This document shows, piece after piece, positions 44,404 through 56,523 of a DNA stretch of 64,000 nucleotides (its first letter is position 1; each line of letters begins with the position of its first letter). The notes under the pieces were generated by a model. The model saw only the letters and a list, made by a program, of their open reading frames with translations. It ran no database searches and had not been told where the DNA came from. The position numbers were made by a program, and so were the translations under genes. The stretch comes from an uncultured Kiloniellales bacterium. Lineage in GTDB: Bacteria; Pseudomonadota; Alphaproteobacteria; Kiloniellales; JAKSDN01. The stretch is taken from contig CAMYKD010000011.1 of the NCBI GenBank assembly GCA_947258885.1, positions 5,834 through 69,833 on the forward strand, in the 5' to 3' direction.

Positions 44404-45228
44404 TCAATCCCGCGCGGCCGTGTGAACGACGCGTTGCGGGAAGGGAATCGTGCAGCCGGCGGCTTCGATGCGTTCCTTGGCCTGGCGGGTCAGGTCGAAC
44501 TTGAGCGCCCAAAAATCGCCGGTGTTCGCCCAGCAGCGCAGGTTGAGATTGACCGAGCTGTCGGCCAGCTCGCTGACCATGACCTGGGGTTCGGGATCCC
44601 CGAGCACGCGGGCGTCGCCCGCCAGCAAGTCGCGAAGCGCACCCAGCGCACGCTCCAGGTCGTCGCCGTAGTCGACCCCGACCGTCAGGTCGAGGCGGCG
44701 GGTCGGCAGGCGGGAGTAGTTGAGGATCGAGCGGCTCCAGATCTGGCTGTTGGGCACCGACCGGTAGATGCCGTCGAAGGTCGTGAACTCGGTGTTGAAC
44801 AGGCCGATCTCCTCGACCGTGCCGGCGATGCCCTCGGCGTCGACGTAGTCGCCGACCTTGAAGGGGCGCAGGAACAGCAGCATCAGCCCGGCGGCGATGT
44901 TGGAGAGCGTGCCCTGCAGGGCCAGACCGACGGCGAGGCCTGCGGTGCCGAGCACCGCCAGGATACTCGCAGTCTGCACGCCGAACTGCGCCAATACCGC
45001 GATGACCACCAAGACCAGGATCATGTAGCGGACCAGGTTCGAGAGTACGCCGCTCACCGTCGCGTCGGCGCGGGGCAGTCGAAGCAGGGCCCGCCGCAGG
45101 GCGCGCCGCGCCCAGCCGGCCAGGATCCAGCCGACGACCAGAAGGATCAGGGCGCCGAGGATATCGAGCGCGTACTGCAGCGCCAGCTCGCCGTACGTTT
45201 CCAAGAGTTTGCTTGCGTCCAGTTCCAT
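44404..45228 (-). CDS. Mechanosensitive ion channel family protein (MscS)
   Basis: [67 protein letters not shown]. Confidence 0.94.
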
Positions 45229-45408
45229 CACACCTCTCCTACACGCCAGAGCCTCGGGGCGGCCACACATTATCCGCCGCCTGCAAGGACCGCCAGCCCC
45301 GACCGGCTTGCCGTAAAGGGCCAAACCGGCTATTTCCCTTGGCGGCCTCCGGGTTTCGCCCAAGGGCCAGAACCAGCCCGGTACTCCGCTGAGAGAGTCA
45401 CGCGCCCG

Positions 45409-46557
45409 ATGAACGACCCCGGCGACACCGCCCTTCTGCCCGCGGGCCTGGAAGACATCCTGTCGCCCCAAGCGGCCCACGAGGCCGGCGTGGTCGAGCG
45501 GCTGATCGCCGCCTTTGCCGGCCAGGGATACGAGCGGGTCAAGCCGCCGCTGCTCGAGTTCGAGGAGACCCTGCTGGCCGGCGCCGGGGCCGCCGTGGCG
45601 CAGCAGACCTTCCGCCTGATGGACCCGGTCAGCCAGCGCATGATGGGCCTGCGGGCCGACATGACGCCGCAGGTGGCGCGGATCGCCGCGACCCGTCTGC
45701 AGCGCGCGCCCAGGCCGCTGCGGCTCTGCTACGGTGGCCAGGTCCTGCGCGTCAGCGGCAGCCAGTTGCGCAGCGAACGGCAGTTCGGCCAAGCCGGCGT
45801 GGAGCTGATCGGCGCGTCGCAGGAGGGGGCCGACGCCGAGGTCGTCCTGCTGGCCGCCGAGGCGCTGGGCGCGGTCGGGGTCGAACGGCTTTCGATCGAC
45901 CTCTGCCTGCCGCCCCTGGTCGGCGCGCTGGCCCGGGAGCTGGGCTTCGACGACGGTCCGGGCCGGGCCCTGCTCCAGGCGCTGGACCGCAAGGACGCCG
46001 CGGCGGTGGACGCGCTGGCCGGGGACCGGGCCTCGCTGTTCCAGGCCCTGTTGCGCGCGGCCGGCCCAGCCGAGGCCGCCCTGGAGGCCCTGACCGCCGT
46101 CGCGCTGCCCGAGCCCGCCTCGGCGGATATCGCCCGCCTCGCGCGCGTCATCGGGCTGATCCGCGCGGCGGCGCCGGAGTTGACGCTGACCGTCGATCCG
46201 GTCGAGCATCGCGGCTTCGAGTACCAGACCGGGGTGAGCTTCACCTTTTTCGCCCAGGGGGTCCGGGGCGAGCTGGGCCGGGGCGGCCGCTATGTAGCGG
46301 AGCCGCCGGGCAATGGACCGGAATTCTCGACCGGATTCACGCTCTACATGGACACGGTGCTGCGCGCGCTGCCCGAGGCCGCGCCGCCGCGCCGGCTCTA
46401 TCTGCCGGTCGGCGGCGACCCGGCGCGAACGCGCGAGCTGCGCGCGGCCGGCTGGATCACCCTGGCCGGCCTCGAGGCGGCGGCCGACCCGAAGGCCGAG
46501 GCGCGGCGCTTGGCCTGTACGCATCTGCTGACCGCCGAAGGTATCGAGGAGCTCTAG
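45409..46557 (+). CDS. hisZ: ATP phosphoribosyltransferase regulatory subunit
   Basis: [48 protein letters not shown]...[26 protein letters not shown]. Confidence 0.93.
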
Positions 46558-46561
46558 GACT

Positions 46562-47854
46562 ATGGCGAACGTCATCGTGGTCGGCTCGCAATGGGGCGAC
46601 GAGGGCAAGGGCAAGATCGTCGACTGGCTGTCCGAACGCGCCGACGTCGTGGTGCGTTTCCAGGGCGGCCACAACGCCGGCCACACGCTCGTGGTCGGCG
46701 GCGTGACCTACAAGCTCTCCCTGCTGCCCTCGGGCGTGGTGCGTTCCGGCAAGATCTCGATCATCGGCAACGGCGTCGTGATCGATCCCTGGGCACTCAT
46801 CGAGGAGATCGCGCGGCTGGGCGAGCTGGGCCTCGAGATCACGCCGGAGACCCTGAAGATCGCCGACAACGCGGCGCTGATCCTGCCGCTGCACGGGAAG
46901 ATCGACCGCGCCCGCGAGGTCGCACGCGGCGCGACCGCGATCGGCACGACCGGGCGCGGCATCGGTCCGGCCTACGAGGACAAGGTCGGCCGCCGGGCGG
47001 TTCGGCTCTGCGATCTGGCCGACCGGGAGGCGCTCGGCCAGCGGGTCGATGCCCTGCTGCTCCACCACAACGCCCTGCTGCGCGGCCTGGGAGAGCCCGA
47101 GTTCGATCGGGCCGAGACGATCCGGGAGCTGGAGGCCGTCGCGCCCAAGGTACTGCCCTTCGCCGACCGGGTCTGGCATCGCTTGGACGAGGCGCACCGG
47201 GCCGGCAGGCGGATCCTCTTCGAGGGCGCCCAAGGCGCCATGCTGGACATCGACCACGGCACCTATCCCTTCGTGACCTCGTCCAATACCGTGGCCGGCC
47301 AGGCCGCAGCCGGCGCCGGCGTGGCGGTCGGCGCACTGGACTACGTGCTCGGCATCACCAAGGCCTACACGACGCGGGTCGGCAGCGGTCCCTTTCCGAG
47401 CGAGCTGGAAGACGAGGTCGGCCAGCGGCTCGGCGAGCGCGGCCACGAGTTCGGCACGGTGACCGGGCGCCGCCGGCGCTGCGGCTGGTTCGACGCGGTC
47501 ATGGTGCGCCAGGCGGTCACCGTGGGCGGCATCGACGGCATCGCGCTGACCAAGCTCGACGTGCTGGACGGTCTCTCCGAGCTCAAGGTCTGCGTCGGCT
47601 ACCGGATCGACGGCGAGACCGTCGATCACCTGCCGGCCCTGGGCGCGCTGCAGGCGGCCGCACAGCCGGTGTACGAGACCCTGGAGGGCTGGCGGGACAG
47701 CACCCGGGGCGCGAGGTCCTGGGCCGACCTGCCGGCCACGGCGGTCAAGTACATCCGGCGCATCGAGGAACTGATCGACGCGCCGGTCGCCCTGCTGTCG
47801 ACCAGCCCCGAACGCGAAGACACGATCCTGGTGTGCGACCCCTTTGCCGGCTAG
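46562..47854 (+). CDS. purA: Adenylosuccinate synthetase
   Basis: [45 protein letters not shown]...[18 protein letters not shown]. Confidence 0.98.
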
Positions 47855-48104
47855 GGGGAGAGGTCCGCGCCGCCCCGGGGCCGTGCGGCGAATATTCCCG
47901 ACGAAGCTGCCTTCGATCACACCAAGTGCTCGAATTCTCGGCTGCCGTTAAGCCGGAGCCGGGGATTCCGGCGCGCAGGCGCATTGGGCGATCCGGCCGC
48001 CCGATCCCGAAGCATTAACCTTCCGTTTGGTCTATTGGGATTAAATAAATCCGCCTATCTGACTGTCGAATGACAGGATCGGACGAGTGCATGGCGAGGA
48101 GGCG

Positions 48105-50144
48105 ATGAGCCGCAGCGAGGCAAGCGAGGGGCAAGCCGGTCAGGGCAGCGGGGGCGTGTCGCTGGGTCCCGACGGGCGTTTCGAGCTGCTGCCCGGCGTG
48201 CGTCTGCCGCGGCTCGACTCACCCCATGCCGAGGCGTATGAGGCGCGTGACATGAGGGAACCGGACCGACCTCATTTTGCACTGATCTGTCGCCGAGAAT
48301 TGCTGCCCAGAGTCGACATTCTCGAACGCGTATCGCGGATCGACCGGAGTTCGATGATCAAGCCCAGACAGTGGGGCGTGGTCGACTGGCACCCGGCCGG
48401 GGGAAGACGTTTCGCGATCGTTTTCGAACAGCCGGGCGGCGGGCGTGTGTTCGGTGGCTCGCCGGGCGAGTTCGCGCCGATGAGGCTGGAAGATATCAGG
48501 CGATCCGTCATAGCTCCGCTGGTGCCCCTGCTACAGGAGTTGTCCGAGCGCGGGATTACCCATCGGGCGATTCGTCCGGATAATCTGTTCTACACCGACG
48601 AAAGCCGCAGCAAAGTAGTTCTCGGCGAGAGCGTTTCCACGCCGCCCGGTCTGGCCCAGAAGGCCGTCTTCGAAACCATCGAAAACGGCATGGCTGAGGC
48701 GTCGGGCCGCGGTCCGGGATACCCGCCCGATGATCTCTATGCGTTCGGCGTGCTTCTGGTCGTCTTGTTGACCGGCGAGATCCCATGCGCCGACATGACA
48801 GATCAGGAGATCGTCGCGGCCAAGCTCAAGCGTGGCTCCTATTCAGCCCTCTGCGGCAGGGCGCGGATCCCGCTTGCCATGCTGGAACCGCTTCGGGGGC
48901 TGTTGTGCGACGATTCGAGCGAGCGTTGGACCACGGGAGATCTAAAATCGTGGCTGGGCGGGCGTCAATTGACACCCAAGCTTCCGGCACTGCCGCCCAA
49001 GGCGACGCGGCCCTTCAGGTTCGCCGGGACCGAGTATCTGGACGCCCGCTCGCTGGCCTACGCCCTGGGCAACGACTGGCCGAATGCGGGGCCCAGCCTA
49101 TACAACGGCAAGATCGCCGATTGGATGCTTCGTAGCCTGGGTAATGAGCCGCGCGCCCAATTGATCGGCAATACGATGCGCCGGCGTCAGTATGCTTCGG
49201 CCGAGGATGGCGGTAGCGACGACCGGACCATTTCGCGCATCTTGATGGCGCTCGATCCCGAGGCGCCGCTTCGCTACAAGGGGCTTGCGGTCAACATCGA
49301 GGGCTTGGGCCCGGCGCTGGCGGCAAACTACCAAAAACCGGAAAAAGTCCAGCTGTTCGTGGAGGTGCTGAGGGGCCGGCTTCCCTTGGCCTGGTTCGAC
49401 GCCCAGCTAGCGAACCGGCCGGAACTCCTGTCCGTCAAGAAACTGATCGAACAAGCGTGCTCTTTCGCAACCCGGGCCCGGGCCGGGTTCGGCATCGAGC
49501 GCTGCCTTTATCAGCTCAATCCCCAGTGGCCCTGCCAGAGTCCTTTGCTGGCACAGGAGTATGTCTGTTATGTCAAAGACTTGCTGCCCGCTCTGGAGCG
49601 TATCGCCGGGCGTGGCATGCCGTCGGAAGAACCGGTCGACAAACACATTGCCGCCTTCTGCGCGGCGCGCACCAGACAGGTACCGGAGCGTCTCCTGAAT
49701 AATCTGGCCGCGGATAGCGCGACCGTCAGGCATATGGCCATGTTGCAGCTCTTGGCGGACGTTCAGAGACGTACGGGTCCGGCCCGACTTCCGGCGTTGA
49801 CCCGCTGGTATGCCAGCCTGCTTGCCCCCGCCATCGATGGATACCGCAACCGGCCGTACCGAAAACAGCTGGCCGACGAGATCGCGCGCTTGGTCGAACA
49901 GGGCGAGCTGGGGCTTCTGAGCGTCCTGTTCGACAATCCGGCCGCGGTCCGGGCCGACGAGCAGGGCTTCGCGGCCGCCCGCGCCCAGTACCGGCAGGCC
50001 GCCAATCGAATCTCCTGGCTGGAGCAGGGGGGGCTGAGTGGGCCGGAAAACGTGCTGCGCGCCAGTCGGCAGGCGGCAAGCATGGTCTCCGCCGTGCTTT
50101 CCGGACTGATGCTTGTCGTGCTGACGGTGTTCTACGCGATGTGA
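48105..50144 (+). CDS. Predicted pseudokinase (Ser/Thr kinase-like domain, helical region, C-terminal TM helix)
   Basis: LLQELSERGITHRAIRPDNLFYTDESRSKVVLGES...PDDLYAFGVLLVVLLTGEIP...; C-terminal MVSAVLSGLMLVVLTVFYAM; start chosen at ATG 48105 behind GAGGAGG. Confidence 0.75.
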   Translation: MSRSEASEGQAGQGSGGVSLGPDGRFELLPGVRLPRLDSPHAEAYEARDMREPDRPHFALICRRELLPRVDILERVSRIDRSSMIKPRQWGVVDWHPAGGRRFAIVFEQPGGGRVFGGSPGEFAPMRLEDIRRSVIAPLVPLLQELSERGITHRAIRPDNLFYTDESRSKVVLGESVSTPPGLAQKAVFETIENGMAEASGRGPGYPPDDLYAFGVLLVVLLTGEIPCADMTDQEIVAAKLKRGSYSALCGRARIPLAMLEPLRGLLCDDSSERWTTGDLKSWLGGRQLTPKLPALPPKATRPFRFAGTEYLDARSLAYALGNDWPNAGPSLYNGKIADWMLRSLGNEPRAQLIGNTMRRRQYASAEDGGSDDRTISRILMALDPEAPLRYKGLAVNIEGLGPALAANYQKPEKVQLFVEVLRGRLPLAWFDAQLANRPELLSVKKLIEQACSFATRARAGFGIERCLYQLNPQWPCQSPLLAQEYVCYVKDLLPALERIAGRGMPSEEPVDKHIAAFCAARTRQVPERLLNNLAADSATVRHMAMLQLLADVQRRTGPARLPALTRWYASLLAPAIDGYRNRPYRKQLADEIARLVEQGELGLLSVLFDNPAAVRADEQGFAAARAQYRQAANRISWLEQGGLSGPENVLRASRQAASMVSAVLSGLMLVVLTVFYAM

Positions 50145-50157
50145 GGAAACGTCCCCG

Positions 50158-50655
50158 ATGGCCGAAGCCGCCAAACGGACCAAAGCCGCTAAAGCGACCG
50201 CCCCCTGGCGGCCCAGAATTCTGTTCTGGACCGTGCTGCTGCCCGTCGCCGGATTGTTCCTGCCGACCTTGACGGTGCTGGCCTTGGCCATGCTGCCGAC
50301 CTTGGGCGCCTATGTGGCCGAACGCAGCCGCGAGAACCACTTGGTCGTCACGGTGGGCCTGATGAACTTCTGCGGCAGCCTGCCGGCGGTGGTGAAGCTC
50401 TGGTCCGGGGGGCAGAGTTTCGCCGCCATCGGACCCGTGCTGCACGATGTCTTCGGCTGGTTGGTCGCCTACAGCGCGGCCGGTATCGGTTGGCTGATCT
50501 ATCTGCTCATGCCGCCCATCGTGGCGTCGTACTGCCGGGTGGCCAGTCAAACCCACGTGCAATTGCTGAAACACGATCAGCGTAAGCTGGTCGAAGTCTG
50601 GGGCGAGGCCGTTACCCAGCCCCCCGAAACGGGCGGCGCCCCGGGGGCCGGGTGA
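50158..50655 (+). CDS. Small integral membrane protein partner of the pseudokinase gene
   Basis: MAEAAKRTKAAKATAPWRPRILFWTVLLPVAGLFLPTLTVLALAMLPTLGAYVAERS...; 13 bp after the kinase-like ORF. Confidence 0.75.
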   Translation: MAEAAKRTKAAKATAPWRPRILFWTVLLPVAGLFLPTLTVLALAMLPTLGAYVAERSRENHLVVTVGLMNFCGSLPAVVKLWSGGQSFAAIGPVLHDVFGWLVAYSAAGIGWLIYLLMPPIVASYCRVASQTHVQLLKHDQRKLVEVWGEAVTQPPETGGAPGAG

Positions 50656-50699: not shown

Positions 50700-51428
50700 T
50701 CAGGATCCGACCGAGGAGAGCCGTCGGTTCAGCACGATCAAGTAGAGTAGAATGAACAGGTAGAAGTAGAACTCCTGCACCTCGCTGGGCCGGTGGAACG
50801 GATAGACTTGGTAACCCAAGGCATCGAGAATACGCTCGGAAAAGCGGGCGAATTCGGCCAGCAGGGCGGTCGGCAGGCAGAGCTGCGGCGGCAGGATGAC
50901 GGCCCACGGCAGGCGACGGATGCGCGGCCGCCGGAGCGCGGCGAGCGGCACCACGATGCCGCCCAGGATCACGCCGATCTCGAGCAACGTGCGCGGCTTC
51001 TGGTCCAGCCAGGAGCTCACGTTGTGCAGGTTGGTCTCGCCCTGGTCGTTGACCGTCGACCAGTAGTCCGGTGTCTGCCAGTCGAAATAGTGCTGTCCCC
51101 AGCTCGCTTCCTCGCCGGCGATGTAGAAGCTGGCAACCGCCGCGAGCGCGATCCAGGCGGCGAGCAGGCGATGGCCCCTGACCCGGGGCAGCAGCAGGGT
51201 CCTGAGGGCGACTCCGCAGGCGCCGAGCGCCAAAAGCAGCTGGGACAGCTCCAGCAAGCCGCGCTCCCCGCCGATCCGGCGGAGGTAGAATTCCGGCGCC
51301 GCGTGAGCCGTCAGCGACAGGATCGCGGCGGCGGCGAGCGGAAGCACGAGCCACCACCAGGGCGAAAGCCGATCCGCTTGACCGCCGGCAGACCTATCGA
51401 TCGTATCGCTTTGCCGGGTCGGGTTCAT
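50700..51428 (-). CDS. Hypothetical integral membrane protein
   Basis: ATG at 51428; multiple TM segments, SFYIAGEEASWGQHYFDWQTPDYWSTVNDQGETNLHN. Confidence 0.75.
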   Translation of the reverse strand: MNPTRQSDTIDRSAGGQADRLSPWWWLVLPLAAAAILSLTAHAAPEFYLRRIGGERGLLELSQLLLALGACGVALRTLLLPRVRGHRLLAAWIALAAVASFYIAGEEASWGQHYFDWQTPDYWSTVNDQGETNLHNVSSWLDQKPRTLLEIGVILGGIVVPLAALRRPRIRRLPWAVILPPQLCLPTALLAEFARFSERILDALGYQVYPFHRPSEVQEFYFYLFILLYLIVLNRRLSSVGS

Positions 51429-51595
51429 CGCTCGATCGCCGGTCTGCCGGCCGGTTCGGTTTGGGGTCGCTCGTACCTTTTGCGCCCGACCTCGGGCCTT
51501 GGTCAAGGGCGGCACGGGACGCCGGCCGCCGTTCCACCGCCCGCCGAGGCTCCCGTCAGCGCCGCCGGGTCGGCTGCCGGCCGCGGACCATGGCT

Positions 51596-52480
51596 TCAGT
51601 TGCTGGCGAGGCGTTCCTTGATCGCCGCGTTGCGGATCGCTTTCTGCAGCTTTTCGAATGCGCGCACTTCGATCTGGCGCACGCGCTCGCGGCTGATGCC
51701 GTACTCCTGGCTCAGCTCCTCGAGCGTGGTCGGGTTCTCCTTGAGCCGGCGCTCCTGTAGGATGTGACGCTCGCGCTCGTTGAGCGTCTCCATCGACTTG
51801 ACCAGCAGCGCCCGGCGCTTGGCGAGTTCCTCGCTGTTGGCCAGCAGGGTCTCCTGGCTTTCGGTCTCGTCGACCAGCCAGTCCTGCCACTCGCCGTCGC
51901 CGTCGATCCTGAGCGGCGCGTTCAGCGAGTGATCGGGCGCGGCCAGTCGCCGGTTCATCTGCACCACGTCGTCCTCGGGGACATTCAGGGTCTCGGCGAT
52001 CTTGCTGACCTGCTCGGGATGCAGGTCGCCTTCCTCGATCGCGCGCATCTGGCCTTTCAGCTTGCGCAGGTTGAAGAAAAGCTTCTTCTGTGCCGCCGTG
52101 GTGCCCATCTTGACCAGCGACCAGGAGTGCAGGATGTACTCCTGGATCGAGGCGCGGATCCACCACATGGCGTAGGTCGCCAGACGAAAGCCGCGCTCCG
52201 GGTCGAAACGCTTGACCGCCTGCATCATGCCGACGTTGCCCTCGGAGATCAGCTCGGACAGCGGCAGGCCGTAGCCGCGGTAGCCCATGGCGATCTTGGC
52301 GACCAGGCGCAGATGGCTGGTGACCAGCTTGTGCGCGGCCTCGACATCGTCATGCTCGCGCCAGCTCTTGGCCAGCATGTATTCTTGGTCATACTCCAGC
52401 ATGGGGAACTTGCGGATTTCCTGAAGGTAACGGGACAGGTTGCCTTCAGAACCCAGGACTGGGACTTTGGGAGCGGCCAT
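51596..52480 (-). CDS. rpoH: RNA polymerase sigma-32 factor RpoH
   Basis: NLSRYLQEIRKFPMLEYDQEYMLAKSWREH...GLPLSELISEGNVGMMQAVKRFDPERGFRLATYAMWWIRASIQEYILHSWSLVKMGTTAAQKKLFFNLRK. Confidence 0.97.
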   Translation of the reverse strand: MAAPKVPVLGSEGNLSRYLQEIRKFPMLEYDQEYMLAKSWREHDDVEAAHKLVTSHLRLVAKIAMGYRGYGLPLSELISEGNVGMMQAVKRFDPERGFRLATYAMWWIRASIQEYILHSWSLVKMGTTAAQKKLFFNLRKLKGQMRAIEEGDLHPEQVSKIAETLNVPEDDVVQMNRRLAAPDHSLNAPLRIDGDGEWQDWLVDETESQETLLANSEELAKRRALLVKSMETLNERERHILQERRLKENPTTLEELSQEYGISRERVRQIEVRAFEKLQKAIRNAAIKERLASN

Positions 52481-55488: not shown

Positions 55489-55890
55489 TCATAGGCAAGG
55501 CGTGATGTCCGTCCGCGCAAAGTCGTCGCCCTTGAACAGCATGGGCTCGCCGCTGTCCTTGGCGAGCGCATAGGAAAAGCAGTCTCCGTAGTTGAGGCCC
55601 GCGACGTTCATGCCCTTGCCGTAGCGCAGGTAGGCGTCGCGGGCCAGTTCCACCTGCGCCGCAGTGACGGATTCGATCGTCAGGTCCAGGTCTCGTATGA
55701 CGCCGTCCAGGATGGTCAGTGCGTGTCGAGCGCTATTCGGACCGGCTCGGCGAGCCACCACGATGGATGCCTCTATCGCCGATGCCGCGGAGAGGAGCCG
55801 GGCACTCTCTTGCTCGATCGCCTGTTCGAGCCGTTCGTGACCGGGCTCGCTATAGATGATCGCGATCAAGGCCGAGGTATCGACCACCAT
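55489..55890 (-). CDS. vapC: VapC-family PIN-domain toxin
   Basis: MVVDTSALIAIIYSEPGHERLEQAIE...RYGKGMNVAGLNYGDCFSYALAKDSGEPMLFKGDDFARTDI. Confidence 0.95.
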   Translation of the reverse strand: MVVDTSALIAIIYSEPGHERLEQAIEQESARLLSAASAIEASIVVARRAGPNSARHALTILDGVIRDLDLTIESVTAAQVELARDAYLRYGKGMNVAGLNYGDCFSYALAKDSGEPMLFKGDDFARTDITPCL

Positions 55891-56285
55891 CAGCGCGGAA
55901 GCCCGGCCTCGTCATACTCCAGAAGCTCGTCCGCGCTTCGATCGTCCGCGACAGGTAGTCGCGAAATTTCTCTCTGTTTTTCTCTCAACAGCGTCCGGTC
56001 GATCTTCTTGCCGCCTTGTCGTTGTGCCCGCTCAAGCAAATTGCGCAACACGGACGCCGCGGGCGGCTTGGCCGCGGCGATCGCCTCGAGGTCCTCGGCG
56101 CTCAGGTCCTCGACCCGCAGGACATCGCGATCGCGACGCTTGAGGCGGCCGTATTCGTCAGCGGAAAGAACCACGATCTTGTCCCGGCCGTTACGGGTGA
56201 CGGTCAAGGGTTCGCGCAGGGCCAAATCCTGGTAGAGACCGACTTTCTTCTGGAACTCGGTCGACGATACGCGGCGCACAGGCAT
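55890..56285 (-). CDS. Phd/YefM-like antitoxin
   Basis: MPVRRVSSTEFQKKVGLYQDLALREPLTVTRNGRDKIVVLSADEYGRLKRRDRD; overlaps vapC start by 1 nt. Confidence 0.88.
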   Translation of the reverse strand: MPVRRVSSTEFQKKVGLYQDLALREPLTVTRNGRDKIVVLSADEYGRLKRRDRDVLRVEDLSAEDLEAIAAAKPPAASVLRNLLERAQRQGGKKIDRTLLREKQREISRLPVADDRSADELLEYDEAGLPR

Positions 56286-56294
56286 CCCCGTTGT

Positions 56295-56313
56295 ATTAAG
56301 GATTACACTTAAT
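56295..56313. promoter_or_regulatory. Palindrome ATTAAG-GATTACA-CTTAAT 10 bp upstream of the antitoxin start, candidate TA operator
   Basis: Perfect 6-bp arms read directly in AT-rich promoter region. Confidence 0.45.
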
Positions 56314-56523
56314 ATACGTATTATCCGGATATTTGTCAAGATCGTAGCTATCTATGGCAGGTGGCTTCTGGTGTCGGAATGGCCGCTGCCGCGCACCAAC
56401 GGCACCACTAGCACCCAGTACTCATTTTCATCCCCTATGGTACGCCGGATCCGCTCAAACTCCGAATTTCAAAGGACAAGTGCCCGCTCTTACGCGTCCC
56501 GGCGTAGCGACGCAGCCTCTCTC

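Follow-up and report, generated by a model that had tools for sequence, protein, structure and literature searches.

A tail-anchored pseudokinase family of the Alphaproteobacteria and its small membrane protein partner: a candidate membrane scaffold

Introduction

What might a protein with the fold of a kinase, but with none of a kinase's catalytic residues, do at the bacterial membrane beside a small membrane protein encoded directly downstream? This question is raised by two adjacent genes, here termed PK and MP, in a window of 64,000 nucleotides; the contig to which it belongs comes from the 4.9 Mb draft assembly of an alphaproteobacterium (G000). Public annotation lists the PK product as a 'serine/threonine protein kinase' and the MP product as hypothetical. 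A preliminary description of the locus, made from its sequence, had proposed instead that PK is a catalytically dead, membrane-anchored pseudokinase and that the two proteins operate together through binding rather than phosphotransfer.

Results

Locus organization and genomic context

The PK gene (48105-50144, plus strand) encodes 679 amino acids. An AGGAGG ribosome-binding site (48097-48102, plus strand) lies directly upstream of the ATG at 48105, and we therefore preferred this start codon over the GTG at 48087. The MP gene (50158-50655, plus strand; 165 amino acids) begins 13 bp past the PK stop codon. Both genes are under purifying selection, with dN/dS values of 0.14-0.24 among the near relatives compared, and a promoter and terminator scan returned nothing above chance.

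The commonest gene order across homologous loci is hisZ - purA - PK - MP, convergent with rpoH and rluD, and these four genes are the recurrent neighbors of PK. Their identities derive from Pfam (purA), Azospirillum annotation (hisZ and rpoH) and sequence reading (rluD). In the window, purA (46562-47854, plus strand) and rpoH (51596-52480, minus strand) provide context and stand outside the pair. Because PK and MP are also found together at loci without hisZ, purA, rpoH or rluD, vertical inheritance accounts better than function for this synteny.

Several other features of the surroundings can be recorded. A multi-TM protein is encoded between MP and rpoH (about 50700-51430, minus strand) and occupies the same place in several relatives. 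An MscS-like mechanosensitive channel sequence (44404-45255, minus strand), forming the C-terminal part of ORF 44404-46686, lies just upstream of hisZ, and two small genes at 55489-56339 (minus strand) resemble a VapC-type PIN toxin and its antitoxin. In three relatives (L153, L154 and L155), TadE/TadF/TadG-like pilus genes follow the pair in the same direction.

A kinase-like fold without catalytic residues

The AlphaFold2 model of PK (mean pLDDT 89.5, pTM 0.84) presents a bilobal protein kinase-like fold. Foldseek comparison of this model against the PDB yielded 1790 matches at E<=0.001, of which the best 50 are canonical kinases throughout; the top matches listed are headed by WNK1 and WNK3 and include Mycobacterium tuberculosis PknB kinase domains, with E-values of about 1e-8 and TM-scores on target of 0.7-0.76 for the WNK and PknB matches. 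Searching the PDB with a profile built from 43 family members gave matches to titin and MAPKAP kinases at 1e-9, PF00069 scored 21.5 bits on the PK sequence, under its cut-off of 31.7, and a BFVD fold search retrieved generic viral kinases only. The structural predictions hence bear out the kinase-like fold that had been proposed.

The kinase-like domain (residues about 25-284; 48177-48956, plus strand) lacks a Gly-rich loop and reads FALIC at the beta3 position, with Cys in place of Lys. It is followed by a post-kinase domain (residues 285-400; 48957-49304, plus strand), which also occurs in DLHK-like kinase-helicases and in a single transmembrane kinase with intact motifs, and by an all-helical C-terminal region (49305-50024, plus strand) without a Pfam family, on which Pfam searches gave scattered chance-level matches only. 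The helix pattern of this region, together with weak matches to armadillo and designed-repeat profiles, suggests but does not prove that it is an alpha-solenoid, as it probably is. As anticipated in the preliminary description, the model shows a long helical region (residues about 285-640 are mostly helix, some 355 residues after the kinase domain) and then a single C-terminal transmembrane helix (residues about 655-678; 50067-50138, plus strand). Both the model and the hydrophobicity of homologues, 124 of 133 of which carry a hydrophobic segment at the C-terminus, identify this helix as a predicted tail anchor.

All the motifs on which the pseudokinase assignment had been based, GITHRAIRPDNLFY, KVVLGES and FALICRREL, are present in the PK ORF. 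The catalytic loop, THRAIRPDNLF (48558-48590, plus strand), has Ala for the HRD Asp, and the DFG-equivalent segment, VVLGESVS (48615-48638, plus strand), has Gly174 for Asp, so that VAIK Lys, HRD Asp and DFG Asp, the three hallmarks of a catalytic Hanks-type Ser/Thr kinase, are all absent from the window protein. An alignment of 133 PK members, including a few near-duplicates, extends this loss to the entire family. The VAIK Lys position is occupied by Cys, Ala or another residue and by Lys in no member; the HRD Asp position holds Ala (72), Ser (21), Gly (15), Asn (9) or others, and Asp once; the DFG Asp position holds Gly in 126 members and Asp in three. At the aligned positions, 129 members have zero of the three catalytic residues, the other four have one each, and no member has two together. 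A search of the 133 homologues for an alternative intact Lys/Asp/Asp set found none. The aligned members also lack a Gly-rich loop and any conserved Lys elsewhere in the N-lobe, which speaks against a relocated lysine of the WNK kind.

A tree built from the C-lobe and the post-kinase domain groups the PK family in a single clade (support 100/99) in which the sole member reading HGD (L126) is nested, indicating that the catalytic loss is ancestral. PK is a pseudokinase by its degraded catalytic triad, and the 'serine/threonine protein kinase' label is misleading.

Residual conservation and the case for nucleotide use

Conservation along PK is highest at residues 460-482, GxGxERxLYxxNxxWPCxSPL, where it amounts to 2.6 bits (C-lobe 2.1, N-lobe 1.6), and is thus strongest outside the ATP pocket. 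The most conserved stretch, GFGIERCLYQLNPQWPCQS, spans residues 461-479 (49485-49541, plus strand). Several positions near the active site are nonetheless retained: Asn160 (127/133), an acidic residue, Glu or Asp, at position 175, one position past the DFG Asp site (116/133), Arg157 (109/133) and also Arg69. Judging from the alignment, these positions might point to some remaining capacity to bind a ligand or to atypical chemistry.

Such chemistry would make PK an atypical nucleotide-dependent enzyme or a nucleotide sensor, in the manner of AMPylation by SelO, glutamylation by SidJ or the metal-independent ATP binding predicted for DLHK and ULK4, with MP as its regulator or substrate. The family-wide retention of the four positions above is compatible with this, as is the prediction that DLHK relatives with the same catalytic-loop Arg bind ATP without a beta3 Lys (PMC12599244). 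However, SelO and SidJ keep the Lys and Asp that are absent from PK, the Gly-rich loop and a conserved N-lobe Lys are missing, and conservation is weaker in the N-lobe than in the C-terminal motif. We therefore regard a nucleotide-dependent role as unlikely, though worth bearing in mind.

A small membrane protein as obligate partner

The MP model (pLDDT 88.8) consists of transmembrane helices and a long C-terminal helix, in agreement with the multi-TM protein described 13 bp downstream of PK. The model and positive-inside counts favor four transmembrane helices with both ends inside, which is probably the topology of the protein. Beyond the initial Met, the only invariant residues are P47, N70, L144, W148 and G149, the last three of which lie in the C-terminal helix (50518-50604, plus strand), where they define a WG motif; this helix is probably cytoplasmic. 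Searches with MP gave nothing significant against PDB folds (best E-value 0.64), chance-level scattered matches in Pfam and no match among the defence families of PADLOC, and PHROGs contained no match to either PK or MP.

HMM searches place MP directly downstream of 120 of the 133 PKs. Among the remaining 13, five have directly behind them a diverged MP-like ORF that is of the usual length and contains TM segments and the WG motif at its end, and three are artefacts (a fused ORF, a contig end and a broken gene); the genuine PKs without an adjacent MP are two second copies (L111 and L116) plus L042, L160 and L176. The gap between the two genes has a median of 10 bp, with overlap in 29 of 112 cases, and in three genomes PK-MP-PK-MP tandem arrays (L104, L105 and L106) show that the pair has been duplicated as a unit.

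The two genes also co-occur at the genome level. Among 387 evenly sampled alphaproteobacterial genomes, 131, about a third, gave strong PK matches (E<1e-20), and MP is present in 130 of these, as established by comparing the lists by hand. The exception (G415) has a weak and probably partial PK match in an assembly of about 770 contigs, and in two genomes (G326 and G256) MP is not adjacent to PK but is kept on another contig. A strong MP match without PK occurred in none of the 387 genomes. A survey of co-conservation had been suggested for the Rhodospirillales; the range of the two genes in the Alphaproteobacteria proves far wider.

We next consider the evolutionary coupling of the two proteins. 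A mirror-tree analysis of 50 loci, from which PurA and RpoH distances were removed, gave a PK-MP partial correlation of 0.64, with a bootstrap range of 0.47-0.71, compared to 0.11 for MP-PurA and 0.15 for MP-RpoH. Since purA is also a neighbor, linkage alone fails to explain the PK-MP value, and the two genes stay paired where purA/rpoH synteny is lost. Co-evolution of PK and MP goes further than species history and neighborhood would explain, and together with their co-occurrence it supports a two-gene module. One-to-one pairing is not absolute, as evidenced by the two second PK copies without an adjacent MP and by stand-alone MPs (L195-L200): two genomes of the same genus (G076 and G197) each carry three extra MP paralogues, with no PK beside them and in differing neighborhoods. 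MP may accordingly have a PK-independent role, or several MPs may share one PK.

Given that neither an intact triad elsewhere in PK nor a lack of co-occurrence was found, a membrane pair acting by binding is the best-supported reading, and its mechanism may be that of a scaffold or of a signalling module. The genomic context could instead suggest that the pair regulates purine or histidine metabolism as the tail of a hisZ-purA operon, purA lying upstream of PK in about 74 loci, usually with hisZ before it. Yet purA and PK lie a median of 130 bp apart, a long gap next to the 10 bp that separate PK from MP, the pair has parted from purA in many lineages, and the co-evolution of MP with PurA is slight, all of which makes such a metabolic role quite improbable.

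Distribution and origin of the family

The closest named relatives are MAGs labelled Kiloniellales and Rhodospirillales, and a pattern-based contig scan, which reaches close relatives only, retrieved three loci. More distant copies reside on Azospirillum plasmid records, and the pair is present in genomes of 1.4-2 Mb as well as in genomes of 8 Mb. Taxonomic spread is stated here by kinship; within a 398-genome sample of the phylum that includes Alphaproteobacteria, no full-length PK was detected outside this class.

Profile matches outside the family that reach into the post-kinase domain are of two kinds. The first are kinase-helicase-nuclease proteins (L190-L194) of about 2100 amino acids with DUF4011, AAA_11/12 and MTES_1575 domains and the motifs HRDLRP and GFG, which we putatively label DLHK pseudokinases from their motif and architecture. 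The second is a single 879-amino acid membrane kinase (L189:3657-6296, genome G460) with intact VILK, HRD and DFG motifs, which is apparently active. The post-kinase domain was found nowhere beyond PK, the DLHK-like proteins and this kinase in 299 genomes, suggesting that PK probably descends from that kinase lineage, with the L189 kinase as a possible living relative of its ancestor. The DLHK-like proteins form a clade separate from PK in the tree, which, due to long branches, cannot firmly place PK relative to DLHK.

The sole canonical Ser/Thr kinase of the window's own genome (L227:1447-3174, contig C64) has a C-terminal HAMP-like segment and a PP2C-like phosphatase gene just upstream. Many eukaryotic pseudokinases allosterically regulate a canonical kinase, and this kinase would offer PK a target of that sort. 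Among 30 PK genomes searched with PF00069, on the other hand, nine gave no hit, and in most of the others the hits are confined to PK itself or to a short stretch of a roughly 500-amino acid ORF, which from its length and score may be UbiB; moreover, no kinase gene recurs near PK. Because most PK genomes searched are without a canonical Ser/Thr kinase, a kinase partner is very unlikely in general, and we reject it, as largely refuted, for the general role of PK. An anti-phage defence module is scarcely credible and was rejected on synteny and scores: the kinase domain does score against PADLOC PD-T4-6 (1e-7) and mad6 (5e-7) and NCBIfam MAD6 (8e-7), but the MAD6 match attains 28 bits against a family cut-off of 460, the PD-T4-6 matches are weak and partial to a model without a curated cut-off, all are confined to the generic C-lobe, MP matches no defence family, and the pair usually occurs once per genome, in synteny with housekeeping genes.

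Discussion

A putative scaffold at the inner membrane

The reading that we favor, with reasonable though far from complete confidence, is that PK represents an undescribed alphaproteobacterial pseudokinase family whose members serve, by binding, as scaffolds tail-anchored in the inner membrane, with MP as obligate partner. PK would be located on the cytosolic side of the inner membrane, its soluble part in the cytosol, and would be bound to MP in an obligate complex by way of its tail anchor, the cytoplasmic WG helix of MP, or both. With four transmembrane helices and both ends inside, MP would place the WG helix where the cytosolic part of PK is, making this helix, on the predicted topology, the likeliest contact between the two proteins. 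The kinase fold and the nearly invariant motif at residues 461-479 may then provide the surfaces on which a cytosolic client docks and is kept at MP; phosphotransfer would play no part.

In its broadest form, to which we assign about even chances, this proposal envisages a class-wide, unrecognised alphaproteobacterial membrane complex, in which a dedicated membrane protein of four helices is the docking partner of a structural receptor, itself a dead kinase fold joined to a helical solenoid, even in small genomes without the usual protein kinases. Such a receptor would have arisen from a DLHK-like or transmembrane kinase and would operate with no kinase partner.

Comparison with known pseudokinases

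Seven bacterial pseudokinase families have been annotated, their functions being given as unknown (PMC12599244, a 2025 review). PK appears to fit none of them, being set apart by motif, and our literature search, in which subscription papers were thinly covered, returned no description of the family, its locus or a name for it.

The nearest known relative is DLHK (O'Boyle et al. 2025, PMC12599244), which, like PK, has no beta3 Lys, has Gly at the DFG Asp position and carries a catalytic-loop Arg (HRDLR in DLHK, HRAIR in PK). The two also share the post-kinase domain, with profile matches down to 5e-19 across kinase and post-kinase regions. DLHK, however, keeps the HRD Asp, carries helicase and DNA2-type nuclease domains and has no transmembrane segment, whereas PK has lost the HRD Asp (Asp in 1/133), has no helicase, is tail-anchored and is paired with MP. 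EssB/YukC of type VIIb secretion is likewise membrane-anchored with all three motifs degraded, and works as a scaffold (PMC12599244). In contrast to EssB/YukC, which belongs to a different phylum, PK still has a long activation segment as well as the Asn of the catalytic loop, carries its anchor at the very C-terminal end, after a helical region, and has no secretion genes recurring nearby that would mark a type VII locus. GLW pseudokinases have GLW at the HRD position and poly-Leu at the site of the VAIK Lys, unlike the HR[A/S/G]-I-R-x-x-N and ALVC of PK.

Outside these families, the L189 kinase shares with PK the C-lobe, the post-kinase domain and the following helical region (profile positions 132-446, E-value 5e-22), as well as terminal hydrophobic segments, but it keeps VILK, HRD and DFG and has no MP gene at its locus. 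Set against these systems, PK and MP stand out as a new candidate pseudokinase family with a dedicated membrane partner and as a good candidate for a non-enzymatic membrane scaffold. With an obligate partner genetically identified, an ancestral catalytic loss and a wide spread, they make a kinase-independent role of a bacterial pseudokinase directly testable.
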